30,664 nucleotides of DNA, from positions 1-30,664 of IMG/VR virus record IMGVR_UViG_3300034101_000658. One strand, 5' to 3'. The translations under genes were made by a program, and so were the position numbers. Of this stretch, positions 4,739 through 28,325 are shown piece after piece (the stretch's first letter is position 1; each line of letters begins with the position of its first letter). The notes under the pieces are model-generated. The model was not told the DNA's origin and did no database searches. It saw only the letters and a program-made list of their open reading frames with translations. Source of the stretch: a virus.

Positions 4739-7700
4739 TTACGAAGGATTTGCAAATGCTAAATAATAAAGTGTTCCATCAACATCAACCTCAAGGTATG
4801 CAGTTGTAGATGTTGTGCAAGTACCAACTATCCTTGACCCCAGTTTCCAAGGCTTTGCAGTACCACTTGTAGGTGCGCCAGTTTTTATTGATCCAGTTGC
4901 TTCTATATTTCCTCCATTGGTTATTGTCATTCTTTTTGTTGCATTAGTCCAAAATTGCAATTCACTTCCAGATATTCCAACTGCAATTTCACCACCAATA
5001 CTGCTTATACCTAATATATCTATGCTATTACTATAAAAAGCAGCAGTACCTACATATAATCTTTTATCAGTTGTAGCACCTTGTATTTCTAATTTACCAT
5101 AATTTGGTGTACATCCAATCCCCACATTGCCACCACTCGTTATGCGCATTCTTTCTGTTGGGCTTCCTCCATTTGCTCTTGTTCCAAATGATAAATATGA
5201 TGCATAATCTCCATTTGTTGCGTTTTCTTTTGCACCTTTTATGTATCCAAATGTATATGCTTCGTTTGATGATGAATCATAATAACCACCAAGTGATATA
5301 CCACCTCCAACTCCAGTAGCATAAGATGTAGTATCAAAAACCAATAAGTTAGTTTTTGTATCTCCTTGTGTTGTAGTTGGCCTAAATATAGAAACTCCTA
5401 TAGGTACGCTGCTCGTCCCAATTCCCAATCTCCCACTCGCATCTAATGTCATTGCTTGGGTGAAAGTGATAGCGTTACCTGCGGTGCCACTATCAGCACT
5501 ATACCACTCATGTGCTGCACCTATCATTCTATATCTTGCAGCAGCAGAACTATTTTTAAAAATAAAGTTTGTTCCGTTGTTATATGAGTTATTTAATATT
5601 TGAGTTTGATTACCACTTCCGGGATTGTAAATTGCAGAACCCGAACCAATATCAAAACCAAATGTTCCACTTCCCCACGCACTCGGTGTAACTCCTAATC
5701 CTAAATTGCCTGAAGTGTTTAAGTATAATTGTTTAGTCGTACCATTAGTAGATAACGACAAATCCATTCCTGTATCTGTAGCTATTTCTGCATAAAGATT
5801 TAAAATACTATAATTAGGGTTTACTATTAAATTTTTACCGCCTCTTCTTAAAAGAGCATAACCCGCCACTTCAATATAAGTTGACGCATCTTGAATAATA
5901 CTATTTCCTATCGTACTTGCACCTGTAAACTTAGGTAGGTAGTTTGTAGTAGCAGTAGCACCGCCATTACCTATTAATAAACCATTGGTGGCATTCACAC
6001 TCGAACTAAACGTAGCACTTGTACCAGATAATGCGCCAGATAGTGTAGTTGCGCCACTTAATAAAACTGGGCCAATTACTCTTAAAGCATAATTAGTAAC
6101 ACCAGTAAATGCACCGTTTGTGAAAGATGGAAAAACATCTAATCCGACCAATAAATCGTTATTTGCAGTTGCCGTTAAACTTGATGTAATATTCATTCCT
6201 TTTGCACTTGGACTTGCACTAGGACTTACACTATTGTTTAAATTTAAAGTTGATGTAGGCGTATAAGTAAGTGTTGAGCTACCAGTTACAGTAGTTGTGC
6301 CATTGAAATAAGTTAATTGACCGGTTGTACCAGTTCCAGTTACAGGGTTTGTTAATACTGCTTGAAAATCAGTACCAGCAACCGCAGCACTTACTGTACC
6401 ACTTCCGTTTGCTTTTAAAATTCCACTAACTGTTCCAGCACCTCCATAAGTAGCACCAATTACAGTACCATTCCATGTACCGCTTGTGATTGTACCATTT
6501 ATATATACATTACCAAATACACCCAATGCTCTTTGAGTAACACCAGTGAATACACCATTGGAAAATGTTGGCGATATTCTTACACCATATAAAATATCAT
6601 CATTTGCAGCAGCATTGACATTTGGGATAATGTTCATTGCAACGGCTTGGCCAGATCCAGCAGTTGCAGTATTGCTAATACTAAAAGTAGATGTTGGACT
6701 AAATGTAAAAGTAGAAGATCCAGTTATTTGTGAAGTATTACTAAAATATGCTATTTGTGCAGCAGTACCCGTTCCCGTAACTGGGTTAGTTAATGTAGCT
6801 TGTGCGCCTATATCAGCAAGTGTCCATGATACATTTGCACTACCATCAAATGTTTTTCCAGTTGCACCTATTGTTAATGTTCTTGCAGTTGCTAATTTAG
6901 TTGCAGTAGCAGCATTACCACTTGTATCGGCAGCATTGTTTGGAATATCTCCACTAACCAATGCACTCCAAACTGGAGCAGCACTAACTGTTCCATCACC
7001 AGTTTGATTTAAAAATTTTTTAGTTGTTGTAGTATTACCTGCAAGTTTAGAAAGTACATTTGCAGCACTTGAATATAAAATATCACCTAATGTATATGTT
7101 GTAATTCCAGTACCACCTCTACCTACCGCAAGATTTCCAGACCAACCTAATGTATGTACAGTTCCAGCACTTGTTATGGTTACGTTTGTGTCATCTGCGA
7201 AAGTTTGGGTAGCAACAGTTAAGCCATTAAGGCTTGTTATAGCCGCACTAATATATGTTGGAGTCCAATTCTCCCATTTGCTACTTGTACCATTAAATCT
7301 TAATAATTGTGCATTTGTTGGGCTAGCAGCATCAACATCACTAATATTATCCAAAGCTAAATTCACCGCACCAGTAAATCCGTTCACACTACTTACTGCA
7401 TCCGTATTATCAACTTTATCCCAAGTAGTGCCGTTGAATATTGCCCAGTCTCCTATTTTCCAATCAGTAATGCCGTCAAGGTTTGTGCTACCCGCAACAC
7501 TTACCACATAATAATATCCTTTAGTTCCCGTACCACTTGCAAGTGTAGGTGTGTTTGTTGATGCGTTCCAAACACCTTGATAAGTTGCGCCTCCAACTAA
7601 AGCGGAGATTTGATTTTGTACTTTACCAAATGCTTGTAGCACACTATCAGTTGCAGCAATGGTACCGCCACCAGTTAAATTTAACCCAGTAAGAACAGTT

Positions 7701-8152
7701 GCAAGAACCCTAGGCTCTGTAAAATATACCGCACCACTTTCTGGAACCGCAGCCGTATTTAAAGTTTGGAAAGTCTTATCCCCTCTATAATATTGAGTGC
7801 TAGTACCCGCCGTAATTGCTGGCTCTTTGCTATTAAATGTCGTCCAATCCGTACTTGACAAATATCCATCCACACTACCAGTCGCTACGGGAATGCTCAC
7901 CGTTCCGCTAGTATTGACAAGAGGTGAGCTAAATGTCAAAGCCGTTTGGTAAGTAGTACTATCAAGCGACCCATCTCCTTTTAAGAATTGTGAGCTAGTA
8001 CCACTCGCAATGTACTTTTGAAAGCGTTGATTGCCTCCGCTGCCTTTACCGATATAAAGATCGTACGTGTCAGTAGTGAATAGAGGCTCGGCAAGTTGTC
8101 CTTGTGGAATCCCTGCCGCTAAACCTCTTTTTATCTTTAATGTATTTGCCAT
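4739..8152 (-). CDS. Long tail fibre protein
   Basis: This 1137-residue protein starts with a virion-attachment type segment (NTLKIKRGLAAGIPQGQLAEPLFTTDTYDLYIG), common at the N-terminus of phage fibres. The shaft is Gly, Thr, Ser and Asn rich. A module of about 100 residues beginning LTNPVTGTGT occurs at 454-553 and again at 600-700. The distal part has repeated fibre motifs such as MTLDASGRLGIG (901-912) and ERMRITSGGNVGIG (1000-1013). No C-terminal S74 self-cleaving chaperone is seen; the chain ends in a short beta segment (TLYYLAFANPS). It should form the trimeric host-recognition fibre. It shares short motifs with the fibre gene upstream. Confidence 0.85.
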   Translation of the reverse strand: MANTLKIKRGLAAGIPQGQLAEPLFTTDTYDLYIGKGSGGNQRFQKYIASGTSSQFLKGDGSLDSTTYQTALTFSSPLVNTSGTVSIPVATGSVDGYLSSTDWTTFNSKEPAITAGTSTQYYRGDKTFQTLNTAAVPESGAVYFTEPRVLATVLTGLNLTGGGTIAATDSVLQAFGKVQNQISALVGGATYQGVWNASTNTPTLASGTGTKGYYYVVSVAGSTNLDGITDWKIGDWAIFNGTTWDKVDNTDAVSSVNGFTGAVNLALDNISDVDAASPTNAQLLRFNGTSSKWENWTPTYISAAITSLNGLTVATQTFADDTNVTITSAGTVHTLGWSGNLAVGRGGTGITTYTLGDILYSSAANVLSKLAGNTTTTKKFLNQTGDGTVSAAPVWSALVSGDIPNNAADTSGNAATATKLATARTLTIGATGKTFDGSANVSWTLADIGAQATLTNPVTGTGTAAQIAYFSNTSQITGSSTFTFSPTSTFSISNTATAGSGQAVAMNIIPNVNAAANDDILYGVRISPTFSNGVFTGVTQRALGVFGNVYINGTITSGTWNGTVIGATYGGAGTVSGILKANGSGTVSAAVAGTDFQAVLTNPVTGTGTTGQLTYFNGTTTVTGSSTLTYTPTSTLNLNNSVSPSASPSAKGMNITSSLTATANNDLLVGLDVFPSFTNGAFTGVTNYALRVIGPVLLSGATTLSGALSGTSATFSSSVNATNGLLIGNGGATATTNYLPKFTGASTIGNSIIQDASTYIEVAGYALLRRGGKNLIVNPNYSILNLYAEIATDTGMDLSLSTNGTTKQLYLNTSGNLGLGVTPSAWGSGTFGFDIGSGSAIYNPGSGNQTQILNNSYNNGTNFIFKNSSAAARYRMIGAAHEWYSADSGTAGNAITFTQAMTLDASGRLGIGTSSVPIGVSIFRPTTTQGDTKTNLLVFDTTSYATGVGGGISLGGYYDSSSNEAYTFGYIKGAKENATNGDYASYLSFGTRANGGSPTERMRITSGGNVGIGCTPNYGKLEIQGATTDKRLYVGTAAFYSNSIDILGISSIGGEIAVGISGSELQFWTNATKRMTITNGGNIEATGSIKTGAPTSGTAKPWKLGSRIVGTCTTSTTAYLEVDVDGTLYYLAFANPS

Positions 8153-10170: not shown

Positions 10171-10791
10171 TTACAATGCGATATATACCGCTTTTACTAC
10201 TTTCCCGTTAAATGAGCTGCCAATACTTATAACAAAATTTGGCGATGTTCCAGTTACAGTGTAGTTGTAATACCATGTGCCATCTATCCCAACTGCCACG
10301 AGTTTAAAGGTTGCTGGGTTTCTACCAGTTATGTTACCGCTTGCTACGGTGTAGCTATCTACGGTTGTAATCTCAGTCAGAGGACCAGTCCCTTGGAGAG
10401 TAAAATTATAGCTAGAGTTTTGGCCGATGCTAGAGCTTAGTGATAAGTCTTGTATAATGCAGTCAAATTCGTACACTTTGTAGTTGCCACTTGCATCAAT
10501 CATGTCTAAATACCCTACAAAAGCCGCATCAGTGCCTTCAATAAAATTATCGAAAAAAGTTATAGGCTGCAAATTTGATTGTACCATCTTTACTAGACCG
10601 CTTCCGCTAATAGAGAAGCTAGTTCTATTGGGTAGGTATTCTCTAAATACTCCATTTGTTCTCGGAGCCAACTCTAAAAAATCCCTAGTAATACTTATTG
10701 TAGCATCTTTAGTACACGCAAAAGGATAGACATTACCACCTGCGTTCGTAAATGCTAAAACTAAACCTTGCGCCGTTACTACTTCTGCCAT
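10171..10791 (-). CDS. Tail-tube-like virion protein
   Basis: This 206-residue protein contains a segment typical of siphovirus tail tube proteins: an early strand, then DATISITRDFLELAPRTNG, a central SFSISGSGLV strand and a C-terminal beta pair. After about residue 140 a separate small beta domain follows (TVASGNITGRNPATFKLVAVG). The main tail tube candidate lies elsewhere (16005-16436), so this could be a tube paralogue at the distal end, or a decoration of the tail tip. It follows the tail tip gene by one base. Confidence 0.55.
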   Translation of the reverse strand: MAEVVTAQGLVLAFTNAGGNVYPFACTKDATISITRDFLELAPRTNGVFREYLPNRTSFSISGSGLVKMVQSNLQPITFFDNFIEGTDAAFVGYLDMIDASGNYKVYEFDCIIQDLSLSSSIGQNSSYNFTLQGTGPLTEITTVDSYTVASGNITGRNPATFKLVAVGIDGTWYYNYTVTGTSPNFVISIGSSFNGKVVKAVYIAL

Positions 10792-16004: not shown

Positions 16005-16436
16005 TTATGCAGTTACGTCAATTGTTCCAGTAGAAGCAATTGTTCCAGAGAAGTTTACAAATTCAGTTGTTGCTTGATTCATTGTCAAAGATGTGATATA
16101 ACCAGCAAATTGATGGTAATATGCAGCACCAGCACTTGAACCAGAAACAACTGGATTCTGAACTCTAACTGTAACAAGAGTTTTGTTAGCAAATGCTGAA
16201 AGCAATGAGTTGTAAGAAACTTGAGCAATTGTTGGAGCGGTTTCGCAAATTGCATCAAAATCCAAACTCATTTGTGGCTCACCTACCGCAGTAAGAACTC
16301 CACAGTTTGTTTGATCGGTGGTTGAATCTACCGTAGAATTTACGCTAGATGTACGCAAACACACGAGGTTTTTATATGACGAACCACCAGCTACGTCAAT
16401 CTCGATGTTTTGTAAAGAACCTTGTACTTGTGCCAT
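16005..16436 (-). CDS. Major tail tube protein
   Basis: This 143-residue protein is beta-rich and lies between the tail terminator and the tail chaperone genes, the standard position of the major tail protein. Features include an early strand (SLQNIEIDVAGG), a loop with alternating Thr and Ser, a central EPQMSLDFDAICE strand-helix, and C-terminal strands (YHQFAGYITSLTMNQATTEFVNFSGTIAST) that would close the tube ring. It should stack as hexamers around the tape measure. Confidence 0.75.
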   Translation of the reverse strand: MAQVQGSLQNIEIDVAGGSSYKNLVCLRTSSVNSTVDSTTDQTNCGVLTAVGEPQMSLDFDAICETAPTIAQVSYNSLLSAFANKTLVTVRVQNPVVSGSSAGAAYYHQFAGYITSLTMNQATTEFVNFSGTIASTGTIDVTA

Positions 16437-16875: not shown

Positions 16876-17321
16876 TATCCTTTAATTATATTTTCTATTC
16901 TTTTAACCATTTGAGGGAAAATTTCCCTTACAGATGGATAAAAAAATGGTTGTGCTGGTGTATGTCCTTTTACACTTGTTTTAAATGAAAAAGCATATTC
17001 TTTCCACTCTTCATCAATACCAGCAGTATATTCTTCTGCAAAATCTCCAGTTCCAAACTCTACATAAGCAGCATATCTAACTCTAGCAACTAAATCATAA
17101 GCTAATTTAGAATTTGAGTCTTTTTCCACTTTAATACTTGATCTTAATCTACCACTTGGTGTTGCTGGAGCTCTTTGTTTGGCTTTTGTTGCCATTTCTT
17201 CAGCAGAAGCAAATATTTCAGCATCTATTTGGTTTACCAAATCGTCCGAATATTTTGCTAAGTCTTTTTTCAACTTATCAAATATTGCATTCTGCTTTTC
17301 AAAAAATATACCGTCAGCCAT
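16875..17321 (-). CDS. HK97-gp10-like head-tail joining protein
   Basis: This 148-residue protein matches the HK97 gp10 family pattern. A helical N-terminus is followed by AKQRAPATPSGRLRSSIKVE, RYAAYVEFGTGDF, and a C-terminal PAQPFFYPSVREIFPQMVKRIEN helix. The family acts at the head-tail junction or tail completion step of long-tailed phages. It lies between the connector and terminator genes with one-base overlaps. Confidence 0.8.
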   Translation of the reverse strand: MADGIFFEKQNAIFDKLKKDLAKYSDDLVNQIDAEIFASAEEMATKAKQRAPATPSGRLRSSIKVEKDSNSKLAYDLVARVRYAAYVEFGTGDFAEEYTAGIDEEWKEYAFSFKTSVKGHTPAQPFFYPSVREIFPQMVKRIENIIKG

Positions 17322-17881
17322 TAAATAACTACCTTTTTATATTGATGATAATTTAAGCCATCCCAATTAGGATATTGGCTTATAACTGCTTGAGGATCAG
17401 CGTTCATCTTCTTGCCTCTGTTCTCGTACTGCCATGCCACCAAAGCCAAAATATCACTAGCAATGTCCTCTGGAACCGAGCTATAACCGCTTTGATATTG
17501 CACCTCATAGTTGCCTTGGGTATAAAGCCACAATTTGCCCGCAATCACCTCATAGTCATCATTTTTAGTAAGTGATTCCCAGCTATTTATGCCAGTTTTT
17601 ATTTTAACACTGTCAATGCAAATAACTGGTCCATAGGGCAAATCTACCATCCAAACGCTTGGCTCATAGCCAGTTGTCTGAATATAGCTTTTAAGCAACT
17701 TATTTACAAACGCTACCCCAGTTAGTTTCTCAATATGTATTCTTGAAGCATTGATTAGTGATTGTATTAAAGTATCATCTGATGTATAATCAATTCGCAT
17801 CCAATTCTTTGCGTCAGTTAAGCTCACTGGTTCAACGACCCCATCAGCTAAGATCGCCGTTCCGTTTATATATATCGCCAT
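17321..17881 (-). CDS. Head-tail connector (gp6-like)
   Basis: This 186-residue protein carries the typical connector opening: SLTDAKNWMRIDYTSDDTLI followed by helix residues for LINASRIHIEKLTG. Later comes a beta part with a VDLPYGPVICIDSV strand, and then a C-terminal helix (DIASDILALVAWQYENRG). Such proteins form a ring below the portal. It sits directly after the glycosyltransferase gene (two bases) and overlaps the next gene by one base. Confidence 0.75.
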   Translation of the reverse strand: MAIYINGTAILADGVVEPVSLTDAKNWMRIDYTSDDTLIQSLINASRIHIEKLTGVAFVNKLLKSYIQTTGYEPSVWMVDLPYGPVICIDSVKIKTGINSWESLTKNDDYEVIAGKLWLYTQGNYEVQYQSGYSSVPEDIASDILALVAWQYENRGKKMNADPQAVISQYPNWDGLNYHQYKKVVI

Positions 17882-17883
17882 AC

Positions 17884-18855
17884 TTACTTATATTTATTAA
17901 CCATTTCTCTGAACCAGGCCTCAAACTCATCAAGCGTTTTTCGCGGGTCATGCTCTCTTGATCTCTCTTTTGCTTTTTTGGATGCCTCACTATATTTTTT
18001 GGCGTCATCCAGTTCAGTAATTGCCTTAACCCAGCTTTTAATATCATTCCGATCCTTTATAAATATGCCCGCTTTCCCACAGTTCTCCACCAACCCTTCG
18101 GCCATTGTGCTTATAACTGGAATCCCAGAGCAATAAGCCTCGGTTGCCGTTCTGCCCCAACTCTCATAATCACTCGGCATTAATAGTATCCTTGTTTGCT
18201 TGTAGTATTGCGCAATATCGGGCGTATTAGGCACTAATTTTAGATTTGGAAGGCTAGATGTCATTTGCTGATCATAGCTGCCCAAAACGCCTAAAAACCG
18301 CTTATTTGGCAATGCACGAGCAATCTGTTCAAATATCTTACCGCCTTTGTTTTCGTTGGTGTTAATCAGAGTAATGTATTCGTTCTTCGCTGGGTCAATC
18401 TTAAGATCATAAATCCGATAGTCAACGGGAGGCGTTAGTATAAAGTTATCCCATTTGTAATTTAATTTCTCTTTTAGCCATAAAGAGTTATACACAACGT
18501 GTTGATTGCGTTCTGCGTTAATGATTTCGGGATAAGGATGGCTATTATGGATCAGATGAAATACTGGTTTTTTATAAAGTTTAGCAGCACCTATTGTCCA
18601 TCTTGTATAGTCCAAATGGGTTATAACTGCATCGCTCCAACGCATTAAATTGTCAACTACGTTCTCACTTGGCGGGAAAACATCCACACCATCAAAAACA
18701 TAATTATTTTTAATCTTATAATGATTTGCTTGATGCAAAAGCACTCTTACATTGTGTCCTTTGCTTATCAAGTCTTTATTGATGTGATGTAGCATCCATT
18801 CAGCACCACAATTATGCTGAGGAGGATAAAGATGAATTGAGCAAACTATATTCAT
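17884..18855 (-). CDS. GT4-type glycosyltransferase
   Basis: This 323-residue protein has a GT-B layout. The N-terminal half begins MNIVCSIHLYPPQHNCGAEW, matching the start of GT4 enzymes (a GAE acceptor-side motif). The C-terminal half has the nucleotide-sugar site: NENKGGKIFEQIA (167-179) and the EX7E motif with E231 and E239 in ESWGRTATEAYCSGIPVIST. It should transfer a sugar from a nucleotide donor with retention. There is no signal or membrane segment. It overlaps the methyltransferase gene by four bases and lies inside the head gene cluster, so glycosylation of a virion protein is a reasonable inference; sugar and target are unknown. Confidence 0.85.
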   Translation of the reverse strand: MNIVCSIHLYPPQHNCGAEWMLHHINKDLISKGHNVRVLLHQANHYKIKNNYVFDGVDVFPPSENVVDNLMRWSDAVITHLDYTRWTIGAAKLYKKPVFHLIHNSHPYPEIINAERNQHVVYNSLWLKEKLNYKWDNFILTPPVDYRIYDLKIDPAKNEYITLINTNENKGGKIFEQIARALPNKRFLGVLGSYDQQMTSSLPNLKLVPNTPDIAQYYKQTRILLMPSDYESWGRTATEAYCSGIPVISTMAEGLVENCGKAGIFIKDRNDIKSWVKAITELDDAKKYSEASKKAKERSREHDPRKTLDEFEAWFREMVNKYK

Positions 18856-19361
18856 AAAAAGTTATAATTAAAGTATAAACCGTACTTTTCGTTTAATTTA
18901 AAAGTTTCCATTATAGGAAACCTATCACTAAATACTGATGGCGTTAAATCAGCTTGTTGATGCACCTCAAACACATTACCTCCAACTGCTTCTTGCTCCA
19001 TTAAGTAAGGTACTGCCGCCATGCAATATATACCTTTCATAGTAATATTAGCAAGTAAATTTTGAGCATCTCTTATACTTAAATGCTCTAATACATCACC
19101 TAATATGATGTATCTATAATCGTTATAATTAAATTCTAAAATGTCTTGGTTGTAAACATTGACATATTTATCTCTCAAATTGAACTGCTGAATATAAGGA
19201 GCATAAATCTCAACCGCATCAATACTTGTAAAATCTTTGCAAAGCAAATCGTAATAACTTCCCGAACCTGGTCCTACATCTAATATCTTAATGTTAGATG
19301 AGAAGTTATGAATAAGATGATCTCTAAAATCATCTTTAAAATAGTTGTATGAATAAGGCAT
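18852..19361 (-). CDS. Class I SAM-dependent methyltransferase
   Basis: This 169-residue protein shows the class I Rossmann fold landmarks: motif I ILDVGPGSG (26-34), an acidic end of strand 2 (E51 in AVEIYAP), NQDILEF with D73, and the post-motif ILGDVLEHL (86-94). At 169 residues it is compact, with no extra target-recognition domain typical of DNA methyltransferases. The partner gene is a glycosyltransferase, translationally coupled by a four-base overlap. Methylation of a sugar or of a modified virion protein is more likely than DNA methylation. The start follows the capsid terminator. Confidence 0.8.
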   Translation of the reverse strand: MPYSYNYFKDDFRDHLIHNFSSNIKILDVGPGSGSYYDLLCKDFTSIDAVEIYAPYIQQFNLRDKYVNVYNQDILEFNYNDYRYIILGDVLEHLSIRDAQNLLANITMKGIYCMAAVPYLMEQEAVGGNVFEVHQQADLTPSVFSDRFPIMETFKLNEKYGLYFNYNFL

Positions 19362-19364
19362 AGT

Positions 19365-19392
19365 AAAAAAAAGGGAGACTTACGGGTCTCCC
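19365..19392 (-). terminator. Intrinsic terminator after the capsid gene
   Basis: On the minus strand GGGAGACCCGTAAGTCTCCC forms a 7-bp stem with a 6-base loop and is followed by eight T. It lies 22 bases after the capsid stop, before the methyltransferase start. It would raise capsid output relative to downstream genes, which then depend on read-through or another promoter. Confidence 0.85.
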
Positions 19393-19413: not shown

Positions 19414-20595
19414 TTAGATTGCACCATAGATACAAGCTGAAGGCTGGAATTGCATCAAATCGCAACGAGCTTCGCAACGGAAAGTGATCAAGTTTTTGAT
19501 GAAATCATCTTGATCGAATTCAGTTGAACGAACTGCAAGTCCACTCTGTTGAGCAATAGAGAACTTAGTTGTGTCAAGAACATAAGCCTTAGACGCTGTA
19601 ACCAAGCTATGAGGAACAACGGGAATACCCATCATTCTGATGTTACCTTGAGCATCAATAGTGATACCACCAGGAACAGAGTAAGAACCACCAGAAGGAA
19701 CGGTTTTCAAAACGTTAGCCCAACCAGCGTGTGTGGTCAAGATAAGGTTTGCGTTCCAGTTAGCAGAACCCAACTGAGCAACATAATCTACGAACTTCTC
19801 GGCAGTGTTAGCACCACTAGATACACCAGCAGTTGCGCTAGAAGCGAGGTCGTTCAAGTAATATGTATCTTCTGCTCTTTGGAAATCTTCGATCAAAGAT
19901 TGCTGCAAATACGCGTTCAAGAAAGGAAGATCGTCAACCATTTGGCGAGATACCTTTACATAACCAGCGATGAATTGCAACACTTTGTTTACAACTGTTA
20001 CATCGTAGTCCAATTGTGCTTTAGAAGAACCTTCAGTTTGCTTACCGAAAGAACCTTCACCAACTGGGGTATTTCCACGAGGGAAAGATACTGAACCAGT
20101 TGAAACTGGGATGATATTGAATACGCTTCTGAGGTGTGGGTTTACAAAAGCGCGGAGAGCTGGAGAATTGATGTAAGAAACGTAAGGGTTACCAGTAAGG
20201 TTACCGCCAGCACCTTCAGTCATTGTTCCAACAACTTTAAGGTCCAATTCGAAATTGAAACCTTTACCGTTTGATCTAACTGCTTCTTTGATTGAATCGT
20301 AACCTTTTACGATTGCTTCACCGATTGCAGATTTGATCTCAGCAATATGCTCGTTGTAAGATTGTGCAACTTTTTTAGTCTCAGCAGCACCAATTTTACC
20401 AAATGCAGCTTTAGCAGCGAGAACTTCTTCTCTTGCTTCAGCAATTGTCTTGTTGTTTTTTGCGAGTTGCTCGTTGATAGCCTCAACTTTGCTTTCGAAA
20501 GCCTTAGCAGCTTTCTCAGTAGCAGCAGCAACTTCAGCTTTCTGCTCGGCCATTTTGGCTTCGAGAGCAGCTTCAAATGTTTTAATGTCGCTCAT
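19414..20595 (-). CDS. HK97-fold major capsid protein
   Basis: This 393-residue protein has the classic two-part plan. Residues 1 to about 110 form an Ala, Glu and Lys-rich coiled coil, the scaffolding delta domain. From about residue 115 the capsid shell follows, with an N-arm (GTMTEGAGGNLTGNPYVSYI), RSVFNIIPVSTGSVSFPRG (E-loop/spine start), FIAGYVKVSRQMVDDLPFL and a C-terminal beta segment. The delta domain is probably removed by the protease coded just upstream. It is followed by a strong terminator. The DNA is less AT-rich than neighbouring tail genes, as expected for a highly translated gene. Confidence 0.9.
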   Translation of the reverse strand: MSDIKTFEAALEAKMAEQKAEVAAATEKAAKAFESKVEAINEQLAKNNKTIAEAREEVLAAKAAFGKIGAAETKKVAQSYNEHIAEIKSAIGEAIVKGYDSIKEAVRSNGKGFNFELDLKVVGTMTEGAGGNLTGNPYVSYINSPALRAFVNPHLRSVFNIIPVSTGSVSFPRGNTPVGEGSFGKQTEGSSKAQLDYDVTVVNKVLQFIAGYVKVSRQMVDDLPFLNAYLQQSLIEDFQRAEDTYYLNDLASSATAGVSSGANTAEKFVDYVAQLGSANWNANLILTTHAGWANVLKTVPSGGSYSVPGGITIDAQGNIRMMGIPVVPHSLVTASKAYVLDTTKFSIAQQSGLAVRSTEFDQDDFIKNLITFRCEARCDLMQFQPSACIYGAI

Positions 20596-27575: not shown

Positions 27576-27722
27576 GTGGAACAGATAGAAAGTCTCTACA
27601 ATTGGCTAGAAATGAACTACAAGGCACTTGCTAAAAGCTATGCAGATTGGGAGAATCCAAATAATCTACCATTTGCCCTTTATTGCATTGCTATGTATGT
27701 TAAGCACCAAACTATAAAATAA
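27576..27722 (+). CDS. Possible 48-residue protein with GTG start
   Basis: A frame opening with GTG reads a protein-like sequence with Trp and Tyr (YNWLEMNYKALAKSYADWE) and ends HQTIK. It lies after the plus-strand terminator, has no clear promoter, and its last 11 bases overlap the end of the convergent DnaA-like gene. A conserved homologue search would decide. An internal ATG at codon 13 is the only other start. Confidence 0.35.
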   Translation: MEQIESLYNWLEMNYKALAKSYADWENPNNLPFALYCIAMYVKHQTIK

Positions 27723-28101
27723 CCCTACAACGATAGGTATTTTGTAGCATTTCGGCCAGTTCTGATAGATTAACGTCATACGGGACAAATACTGAAATTC
27801 TTTTATCGATCATGTAACGGGTTGAAATATACTCTTGAATAGATCGCAAAGCGTTTATAATATTTTCGTCCTTGATGCTTAATAAGTCATTTATGACAGA
27901 TATGCCATGAATGACGCTAGTGTGGTCAGTATTTGTTAACTGGCCAATTTGCTTAAGCGTTGCGCCGTAATAATATTTTGATAAATAGTAAAACAGATGA
28001 CGACATACAACAAGCTCCCGAAAACGCCCCTTTGTTTTCACCCGATTAATATCTTGACCCATAACAAAACAAACCCCTTCCAATACGTTGACCAATTCCA
28101 T
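27712..28101 (-). CDS. DnaA domain IV-like DNA-binding protein
   Basis: The 129-residue product contains the C-terminal DNA-binding domain of DnaA: a basic RFRELVVCRHLFYYLSKYYY helix, ATLKQIGQLTNTDHTSVIHG with the DnaA signature DHTxV-H (residues 59-65), and following helices. The ATPase domain of DnaA is absent. The frame continues upstream to 28299, but those 66 residues come from the G-rich tandem repeat and are Gly, Phe and Trp rich junk, so I chose ATG 28101. It lies beside an iteron-like repeat cluster and is likely the phage origin-binding protein. Confidence 0.75.
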   Translation of the reverse strand: MELVNVLEGVCFVMGQDINRVKTKGRFRELVVCRHLFYYLSKYYYGATLKQIGQLTNTDHTSVIHGISVINDLLSIKDENIINALRSIQEYISTRYMIDKRISVFVPYDVNLSELAEMLQNTYRCRVIL

Positions 28102-28128
28102 AATAAAATATTTAAAGTTATAAATGAC

Positions 28129-28278
28129 AAAAACCCCCAAAAACTCCCAAGCGCCAAAAACCCCAAAAACCCCAAAAACTCCCAACCGCCAAAAACCCTT
28201 AACCCATCCAAAAACTTTCCGCACGCAAAACAAAAATCCATAACCACCAAAAATCCCTAAGCCCACCAAAAACTTTCC
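28129..28278. repeat. C-rich/G-rich tandem repeat (CCCCAAAAA units)
   Basis: The plus strand has back-to-back units CCCCAAAAA with variants CCCAAAAAC, giving on the minus strand a series of GGGG/GGG tracts separated by T runs, similar to telomere-type repeats and able to form a G-quadruplex. A 13-base direct repeat CCAAAAACTTTCC occurs at 28208-28220 and 28266-28278. The block lies directly upstream of the DnaA-like gene. Confidence 0.75.
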
Positions 28279-28325
28279 AAGACCATTTTCCCAATTCACC
28301 GCAATTCTCTATATACCCCACCCTA

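Follow-up and report, generated by a model that had tools for sequence, protein, structure and literature searches.

A probable virion-glycosylation module with an exchangeable finishing enzyme in the head operon of an uncultured phage lineage

We describe a pair of genes that probably forms a virion-glycosylation module within the head operon of a phage, in which a GT4-type glycosyltransferase (GT) would add a conserved sugar and the enzyme encoded in an adjoining slot would cap or extend it. The window, by which we mean the whole stretch of DNA analysed, is a 30,664-base IMG/VR virus record, and its slot holds a compact class I methyltransferase (MT). Across the relatives of this phage the GT gene keeps one position between the genes for the major capsid protein (MCP) and the head-tail connector, and the gene beside it has been exchanged many times.

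Results

Gene order and junctions of the locus

The genes run on the minus strand in the order terminase large subunit, portal, Mu-F-like head protein, S78 protease, HK97-fold capsid, MT and GT, followed 3′ of GT, on the same strand, by a gp6-like connector, an HK97-gp10-like protein, a tail terminator and the major tail protein.

16005..16436, minus strand: major tail (tube) protein (phrog_1407 major tail protein, 47.3 bits), second candidate acceptor
17321..17881, minus strand: gp6-like head-tail connector (Phage_connect_1, 40.1 bits), downstream anchor of the putative module
17884..18855, minus strand: GT4-type glycosyltransferase, 323 aa (Pfam over cut-off, phrog_26352, E-x7-E), conserved partner in the putative module
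18852..18855, minus strand: ATGA overlap of MT stop and GT start, 4 bases, read from the sequence
18852..19361, minus strand: compact class I SAM-dependent methyltransferase, 169 aa, slot occupant in this phage
19373..19392, minus strand: intrinsic terminator between the capsid gene and the slot gene, a hairpin then 8 T
19414..20595, minus strand: HK97-fold major capsid protein (Phage_capsid, 65.2 bits; phrog_10), upstream anchor of the putative module and candidate acceptor

An earlier note on this DNA had read the two enzymes as a GT4-type glycosyltransferase and a compact class I methyltransferase which overlap by four bases and sit between a capsid gene with its own terminator and the head-tail connector. 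Both classes are borne out, GT by Pfam (Glycos_transf_1, 50.6 bits against a cut-off of 26.4) and MT by its AlphaFold fold; the overlap is the ATGA at 18852-18855, and the coordinates and the hairpin confirm the position. The terminator, GGGAGACCCGTAAGTCTCCC followed by TTTTTTTT at 19392-19373, is a perfect hairpin and then 8 T, 3′ of the capsid gene, in a capsid-slot junction that is common to the relatives described below. Of these, 128 of 131 (best 80 matches per scan) likewise have a terminator-like hairpin after MCP, and its stem pairs co-vary, with A-T, T-A and G-C all found at one position. Whichever gene fills the slot, ATGA forms the start of GT in 125 scored relatives, and the overlap is likely to reflect translational coupling. 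On its other side, GT is separated from the connector by a 2-base gap.

Several other genes of the window deserve mention. A second protein matches phrog_1407 (major tail protein; 10171-10791, minus strand, 51 bits), in addition to that at 16005-16436 (47 bits), and the two flank the tape measure gene, one on each side; the phage thus seems to have two tail-tube-like paralogues. A 1137-aa tail protein (4739-8152, minus strand) resembles Mtd_N, of the major tropism determinant, at its N-terminus with 24.2 bits, under the cut-off of 26.3. A phage protein at 27712-28299 (minus strand) carries a DnaA C-terminal DNA-binding domain (PF08299, 44 bits, over cut-off) and has relatives in some related contigs.

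Fixed position of the glycosyltransferase gene

Viral contigs were scanned with GT (146 contigs encoding a relative, the best 80 of 146 kept) and with a GT alignment (284 contigs, the best 80 of 284 kept). Because picks based on GT would choose only loci that contain it, searches with capsid sequences were added. The resulting set, from the best 80 matches per scan, comprises 131 loci with exact duplicates removed, the capsid C-terminus present and at least 1.7 kb beyond the capsid end; it includes capsids down to about 60% identity, and near-identical contigs from different samples are counted separately. In the loci inspected gene by gene, the order is capsid, one gene, GT, connector. GT lies between MCP and connector in all 131 distinct MCP-bearing relatives (best 80 matches per scan) and is present in each of the 60 loci whose identifiers were first assigned by the two capsid scans (best 80 per scan). 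A connector follows GT in 127 of the 131, the other four contigs being without a connector match. We never found GT elsewhere in phages of this lineage.

These results bear on three statements of the earlier note. From the position of the pair it had inferred a modification system that puts sugar and methyl on virion proteins, with a host glycan or a DNA base as alternative targets; the constancy of GT between capsid and connector (131 of 131) supports the virion-protein reading. It had suggested a check of whether related phages, too, carry the two genes next to the capsid gene: GT is indeed found there in every case (best 80 per scan) and MT in 59. No case was seen of the pair lying away from the head genes in association with DNA modification, since GT occurs nowhere else in these phages and MT relatives outside the group are accompanied by protein O-heptosyltransferases and other enzymes that act on glycans. 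Finally, it had called the pair inserted. That description stands against distant cultured relatives only: Flavobacterium phage 11b and Cellulophaga phi10:1, whose MCPs are 31-32% identical, have no GT annotated between capsid and connector. Within its own lineage GT is universal and a core gene, and a recent insertion was therefore rejected for GT and retained only for the slot gene.

The host is probably a member of the Bacteroidota, as judged from the capsid, which is closest to those of Flavobacterium phage 11b and Cellulophaga phi10:1, and from the terminase, whose top matches are mostly Bacteroides phages. A scan of 84,980 cellular genomes with the GT and MCP alignments gave no relatives.

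An exchangeable slot between capsid and glycosyltransferase

The slot is filled in 131 of 131 loci (best 80 matches per scan): 59 hold a window-type MT, 44 a GT25-type protein, 26 an FkbM methyltransferase and 2 a combination (again among the best 80 per scan). The window-type MT is one of three occupants that are unrelated to each other. The FkbM gene scores over cut-off in both Pfam and NCBIfam. The GT25-type protein (185-187 aa, unrelated to MT) gave nothing useful in direct Pfam, NCBIfam and PDB searches, and its AlphaFold model was too poor to use (pLDDT 47). It is labelled GT25-type because its profile aligns with two huge-phage proteins (hhalign probability 96 and 98%) which themselves match Glyco_transf_25 (PF01755) at 30.7 and 37.3 bits, over the cut-off of 24; hhalign gave no match to another GT25 protein (L210). 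PF01755 is absent from the window record, and in this phage the slot is not filled by a GT25-type enzyme.

Trees of MCP, GT and connector require at least 24-25 switches of slot type, against a mean of 51-58 for shuffled labels. Slot type is thus inherited but often replaced. The exchange is repeated and precise, with sharply defined edges. When the window (MT) is compared with locus L006 (GT25-type), identity is 98.3% at the end of MCP, 91% across the junction and 92.8% in GT, but 49% in the slot gene, which is the level of the shuffled expectation (50.7%, computed for the pair L003/L006).

Two loci, L078 (1909-3051) and L250, hold two or three slot genes in tandem, GT25-type then FkbM; these could be intermediates of cassette exchange or could specify longer glycans. 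In L036, an HNH-like ORF (26-577), recognised by sequence only, directly precedes GT, and it is possible that it encodes a homing endonuclease which could drive slot exchange.

Enzyme classes and the target of methylation

In addition to Glycos_transf_1, GT matches Pfam Glyco_trans_1_4 (49.2 bits, cut-off 27) and phrog_26352 (232 bits). The GT-B C-terminal domain and the E-x7-E motif (ESWGRTATE, both glutamates invariant in the alignment) place it in family GT4. It has no match to TIGR04414, the BAHT protein O-heptosyltransferase family, in an NCBIfam search, and no enzyme recognisably starting protein glycosylation was found in the window. Judged from their sequences, GT and MT are probably both soluble, and both are under purifying selection (median dN/dS 0.09 and 0.155, respectively).

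MT falls just under cut-off with five Pfam class I methyltransferase models (Methyltransf_23, 24.4 against 27). Its AlphaFold model (pLDDT 86, pTM 0.83) matched many class I methyltransferases in the PDB by Foldseek, with E about 1e-7, and the predicted Rossmann-like fold, together with a SAM-binding G-x-G-x-G motif (DVGPGSGSY), identifies it as a class I SAM methyltransferase. The top 50 fold matches include the sugar N-methyltransferases CalS10, TylM1, KedS8 and DesVI, the glycopeptide methyltransferase MtfA and the protein N-terminal methyltransferases NRMT1/NTMT1 and ScNTM1, and contain no DNA methyltransferase. The modelled fold alone cannot decide the substrate.

The protein N-terminal methyltransferases found here beside sugar N-methyltransferases lend some weight to the idea that MT methylates a virion protein directly while GT acts independently, the two sharing a locus but no glycan. 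We give this very little credence: a second glycosyltransferase occupies the same slot in a third of the relatives, an indication that a glycan is what the slot enzymes modify, and relatives of MT are fused to glycosyltransferase domains.

The same list argues against a role for the pair in modifying phage DNA, whereby a glycosylated and/or methylated base would block restriction. Some phage glycosyltransferases do glycosylate DNA bases, and true DNA methyltransferases are encoded in 3 of 11 records. However, motif IV of MT reads ILGDVLEH and not DPPY or NPPY, the window record has no N6_N4_Mtase match, and the true N6/N4 DNA methyltransferases are separate, sporadic and located elsewhere in the genome, whereas every relative in the set has GT, and always within the head operon. 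As exchangeable partners, moreover, FkbM and GT25 enzymes would be ill-suited to base modification. A thymidylate-synthase/hydroxymethylase homologue (PF00303) is absent from 11 of 11 records and matched in 9 of 14 control genomes, in a search confined to the thymidylate-synthase-like route of base modification. On the strength of motif IV, the fold neighbours and the lack of thymidylate-synthase-like enzymes, DNA modification was rejected as the main explanation, and we consider it very improbable.

Relatives of the methyltransferase in other phages

Outside this group, relatives of MT are found in larger phages, many of them as the N-terminal part of long proteins that also bear domains of the GT4, GT9 and pyruvyl-transferase families. 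NCBIfam was applied to six loci (L172, L193, L198, L204, L210 and L211), and in each of the six the TIGR04414 autotransporter O-heptosyltransferase domain is fused or adjacent to the MT relative, with scores of 248-323 bits against a cut-off of 200. The founding member of that family, TibC, glycosylates protein (PMC4358343). Further neighbours of MT relatives or of GT25-type relatives include sulfotransferases and GT2, GT10 and GT11 enzymes. These partners tie MT to the finishing of glycans, in a protein-linked context in the cases tested. Several of the TIGR04414 enzymes in the six loci lie within multi-domain proteins of 1150-1470 aa (MT, GT4, pyruvyl-transferase), and we found no published description of TibC-like enzymes in phages. 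In the 595-kb huge phage LR756511 (L401, 3219-6520), an MT relative with 42% identity has a sulfotransferase gene nearby.

A different glycan target has to be weighed here, namely that the pair remodels a host surface glycan (LPS, capsule or exopolysaccharide) to bring about superinfection exclusion or easier release of progeny. Loci for LPS and capsule commonly encode GT4, GT25 and FkbM enzymes, and the closest named NCBIfam models of GT include small-molecule and polysaccharide glycosyltransferases. Nevertheless, in every relative (131 loci, best 80 per scan) the genes keep a fixed place with a head gene on either side, the partners of the MT family elsewhere are protein O-heptosyltransferases, and no GtrA/GtrB-like membrane partners were seen on inspection of the head cluster. 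We regard action on host glycans as unlikely. Lysogeny is the usual setting of serotype conversion, and there is no sign of it here: a tyrosine integrase (PF00589, the integrase type searched for) is absent from 10 of 10 near-full-length relatives of 32-36 kb, whose records, like the 11 considered above, are classed as linear and may be incomplete. Lysogenic serotype conversion of the gtr kind was rejected, given the lack of a tyrosine integrase and the fixed position in the head operon. The data do not speak in the same way against host-glycan action during lytic growth.

Discussion

From the gene content, the fold classes, the fixed position, the universality of GT and the repeated exchange of the slot gene, we infer a donor sugar, an acceptor, an order of reactions and a benefit for the probable virion-glycosylation module as follows. 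Late in infection, the GT4 enzyme would draw on a host nucleotide sugar to attach a conserved sugar either to a virion protein that has just been synthesised or to a glycan which this protein already bears. MCP is the first candidate acceptor and the tail tube protein, by analogy with mycobacteriophages, the second. The enzyme of the adjacent slot would then finish the glycan: in the window phage it would put a methyl group on the sugar, and in relatives a GT25-type enzyme would add another sugar or an FkbM-type enzyme would methylate. The terminator after the capsid gene may keep enzyme levels below those of the capsid, with the ATGA overlap coupling the slot enzyme to GT. It counts against the virion reading that the window encodes no recognisable initiator of protein glycosylation, that its MCP lacks a Ser/Thr-rich C-terminal tail, that GT shows no homology to the Che8 glycosyltransferases in profile comparison, and that GT4 enzymes and class I methyltransferases also serve host polysaccharides and small molecules.

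A further reading, which we put forward tentatively, is that this is a viral glycotype-switching locus, in which the committed glycosyltransferase is kept and the finishing enzyme is swapped as a precise cassette, from the terminator to the GT start codon, such that nearly the same capsids come to carry different surface sugars under diversifying pressure. To finish the glycan, one or other of two unrelated methyltransferases would O-methylate it, or a second sugar would be added. Such pressure might be exerted, for example, by grazers, by glycan-binding proteins, through adsorption to particles or by a capsid-sensing host defence, wherever the glycans of the capsid are recognised.

Within the literature that we found, virion glycosylation in tailed phages is proven for a few actinobacteriophages only, and its stated benefit there is shielding from antibodies. 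Such shielding can hardly apply to phages of free-living bacteria. If our interpretation is correct, and such a module is a core component of a large lineage of uncultured phages that probably infect Bacteroidota, then sugar-coated virions would be more widespread and serve a purpose outside animals. The natural series of swaps, with near-identical capsids and different finishing enzymes, makes the purpose of a sugar coat testable, and the locus is in addition a source of matched pairs of small, uncharacterised enzymes that modify sugars.

Comparison with known systems

The closest parallel in arrangement is found in the cluster O mycobacteriophages such as Corndog, in which an O-methyltransferase, two glycosyltransferases and a putative N-acetylglucosaminyltransferase are encoded between portal and protease (PMC4351075). 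The gene order is portal-OMT-GT-GT-GT25-protease-MCP (Corndog gp35-gp38), and we confirmed it in Wildflower (gp33-gp36), where TylF and Glyco_transf_25 domains are found. These enzymes are reported, in PMC11600133 with reference to Freeman 2023, to modify both the capsid and the tail tube. As in the window, where adjoining glycosyltransferase and methyltransferase genes likewise lie in the head cluster, a methyltransferase gene is followed by glycosyltransferase genes among the head genes, and one of the enzymes is a GT25, the family of the alternative slot gene in the window lineage. The differences are that cluster O uses the portal-protease rather than the capsid-connector position, a TylF-type methyltransferase, and GT2-like and GT25 main glycosyltransferases instead of GT4. 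In addition, its phages have actinobacterial hosts and a fixed gene set, slot exchange not being described in the literature found.

In Che8, gp110 is reported to be essential for capsid glycosylation (PMC12363180). We find that gp110 is a GT25 and that gp108 combines GT2 with a TylF methyltransferase, so that glycosyltransferase and methyltransferase again occur together, and GT25 is again the alternative slot type of the window lineage. Unlike the pair in the window, gp108-gp110 are encoded a long way from the head genes, towards the right end of the genome, and profile comparison detected no homology between GT and the Che8 glycosyltransferases. Glycan attachment in mycobacteriophages is reported to be C-terminal (PMC12619734). 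By contrast, the window MCP has no Ser/Thr-rich C-terminal tail, and Ser/Thr enrichment at the capsid and tail-tube C-termini gave no clear signal (0.35 in the last 15 residues of the tail protein against 0.26 overall).

Streptomyces phage TurkishDelight encodes a homologous GT4 enzyme, gp20 (31% identity, 87% coverage), after MCP and before the major tail protein. It differs in its tandem double GT4 domain (678 aa), in two intervening genes and in having no methyltransferase neighbour that we could see, and its function is putative only. The TibC/Aah heptosyltransferases (BAHT, TIGR04414) are partners of MT relatives in other phages, whereas the window has no BAHT and its glycosyltransferase is a GT4. 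In the chlorovirus PBCV-1, which is a eukaryotic virus, the glycan of the major capsid protein receives rhamnoses and methyl groups from two viral enzymes, A064R and A061L (PMC9614988). Here a glycosyltransferase and a class I sugar O-methyltransferase finish and cap an N-glycan, and the parallel with the window is one of function only. The system of the window thus appears to resemble known virion-glycosylation systems in its logic and partly in its enzyme families, and is set apart by a GT4 core enzyme, a capsid-connector position and an exchangeable finishing enzyme.
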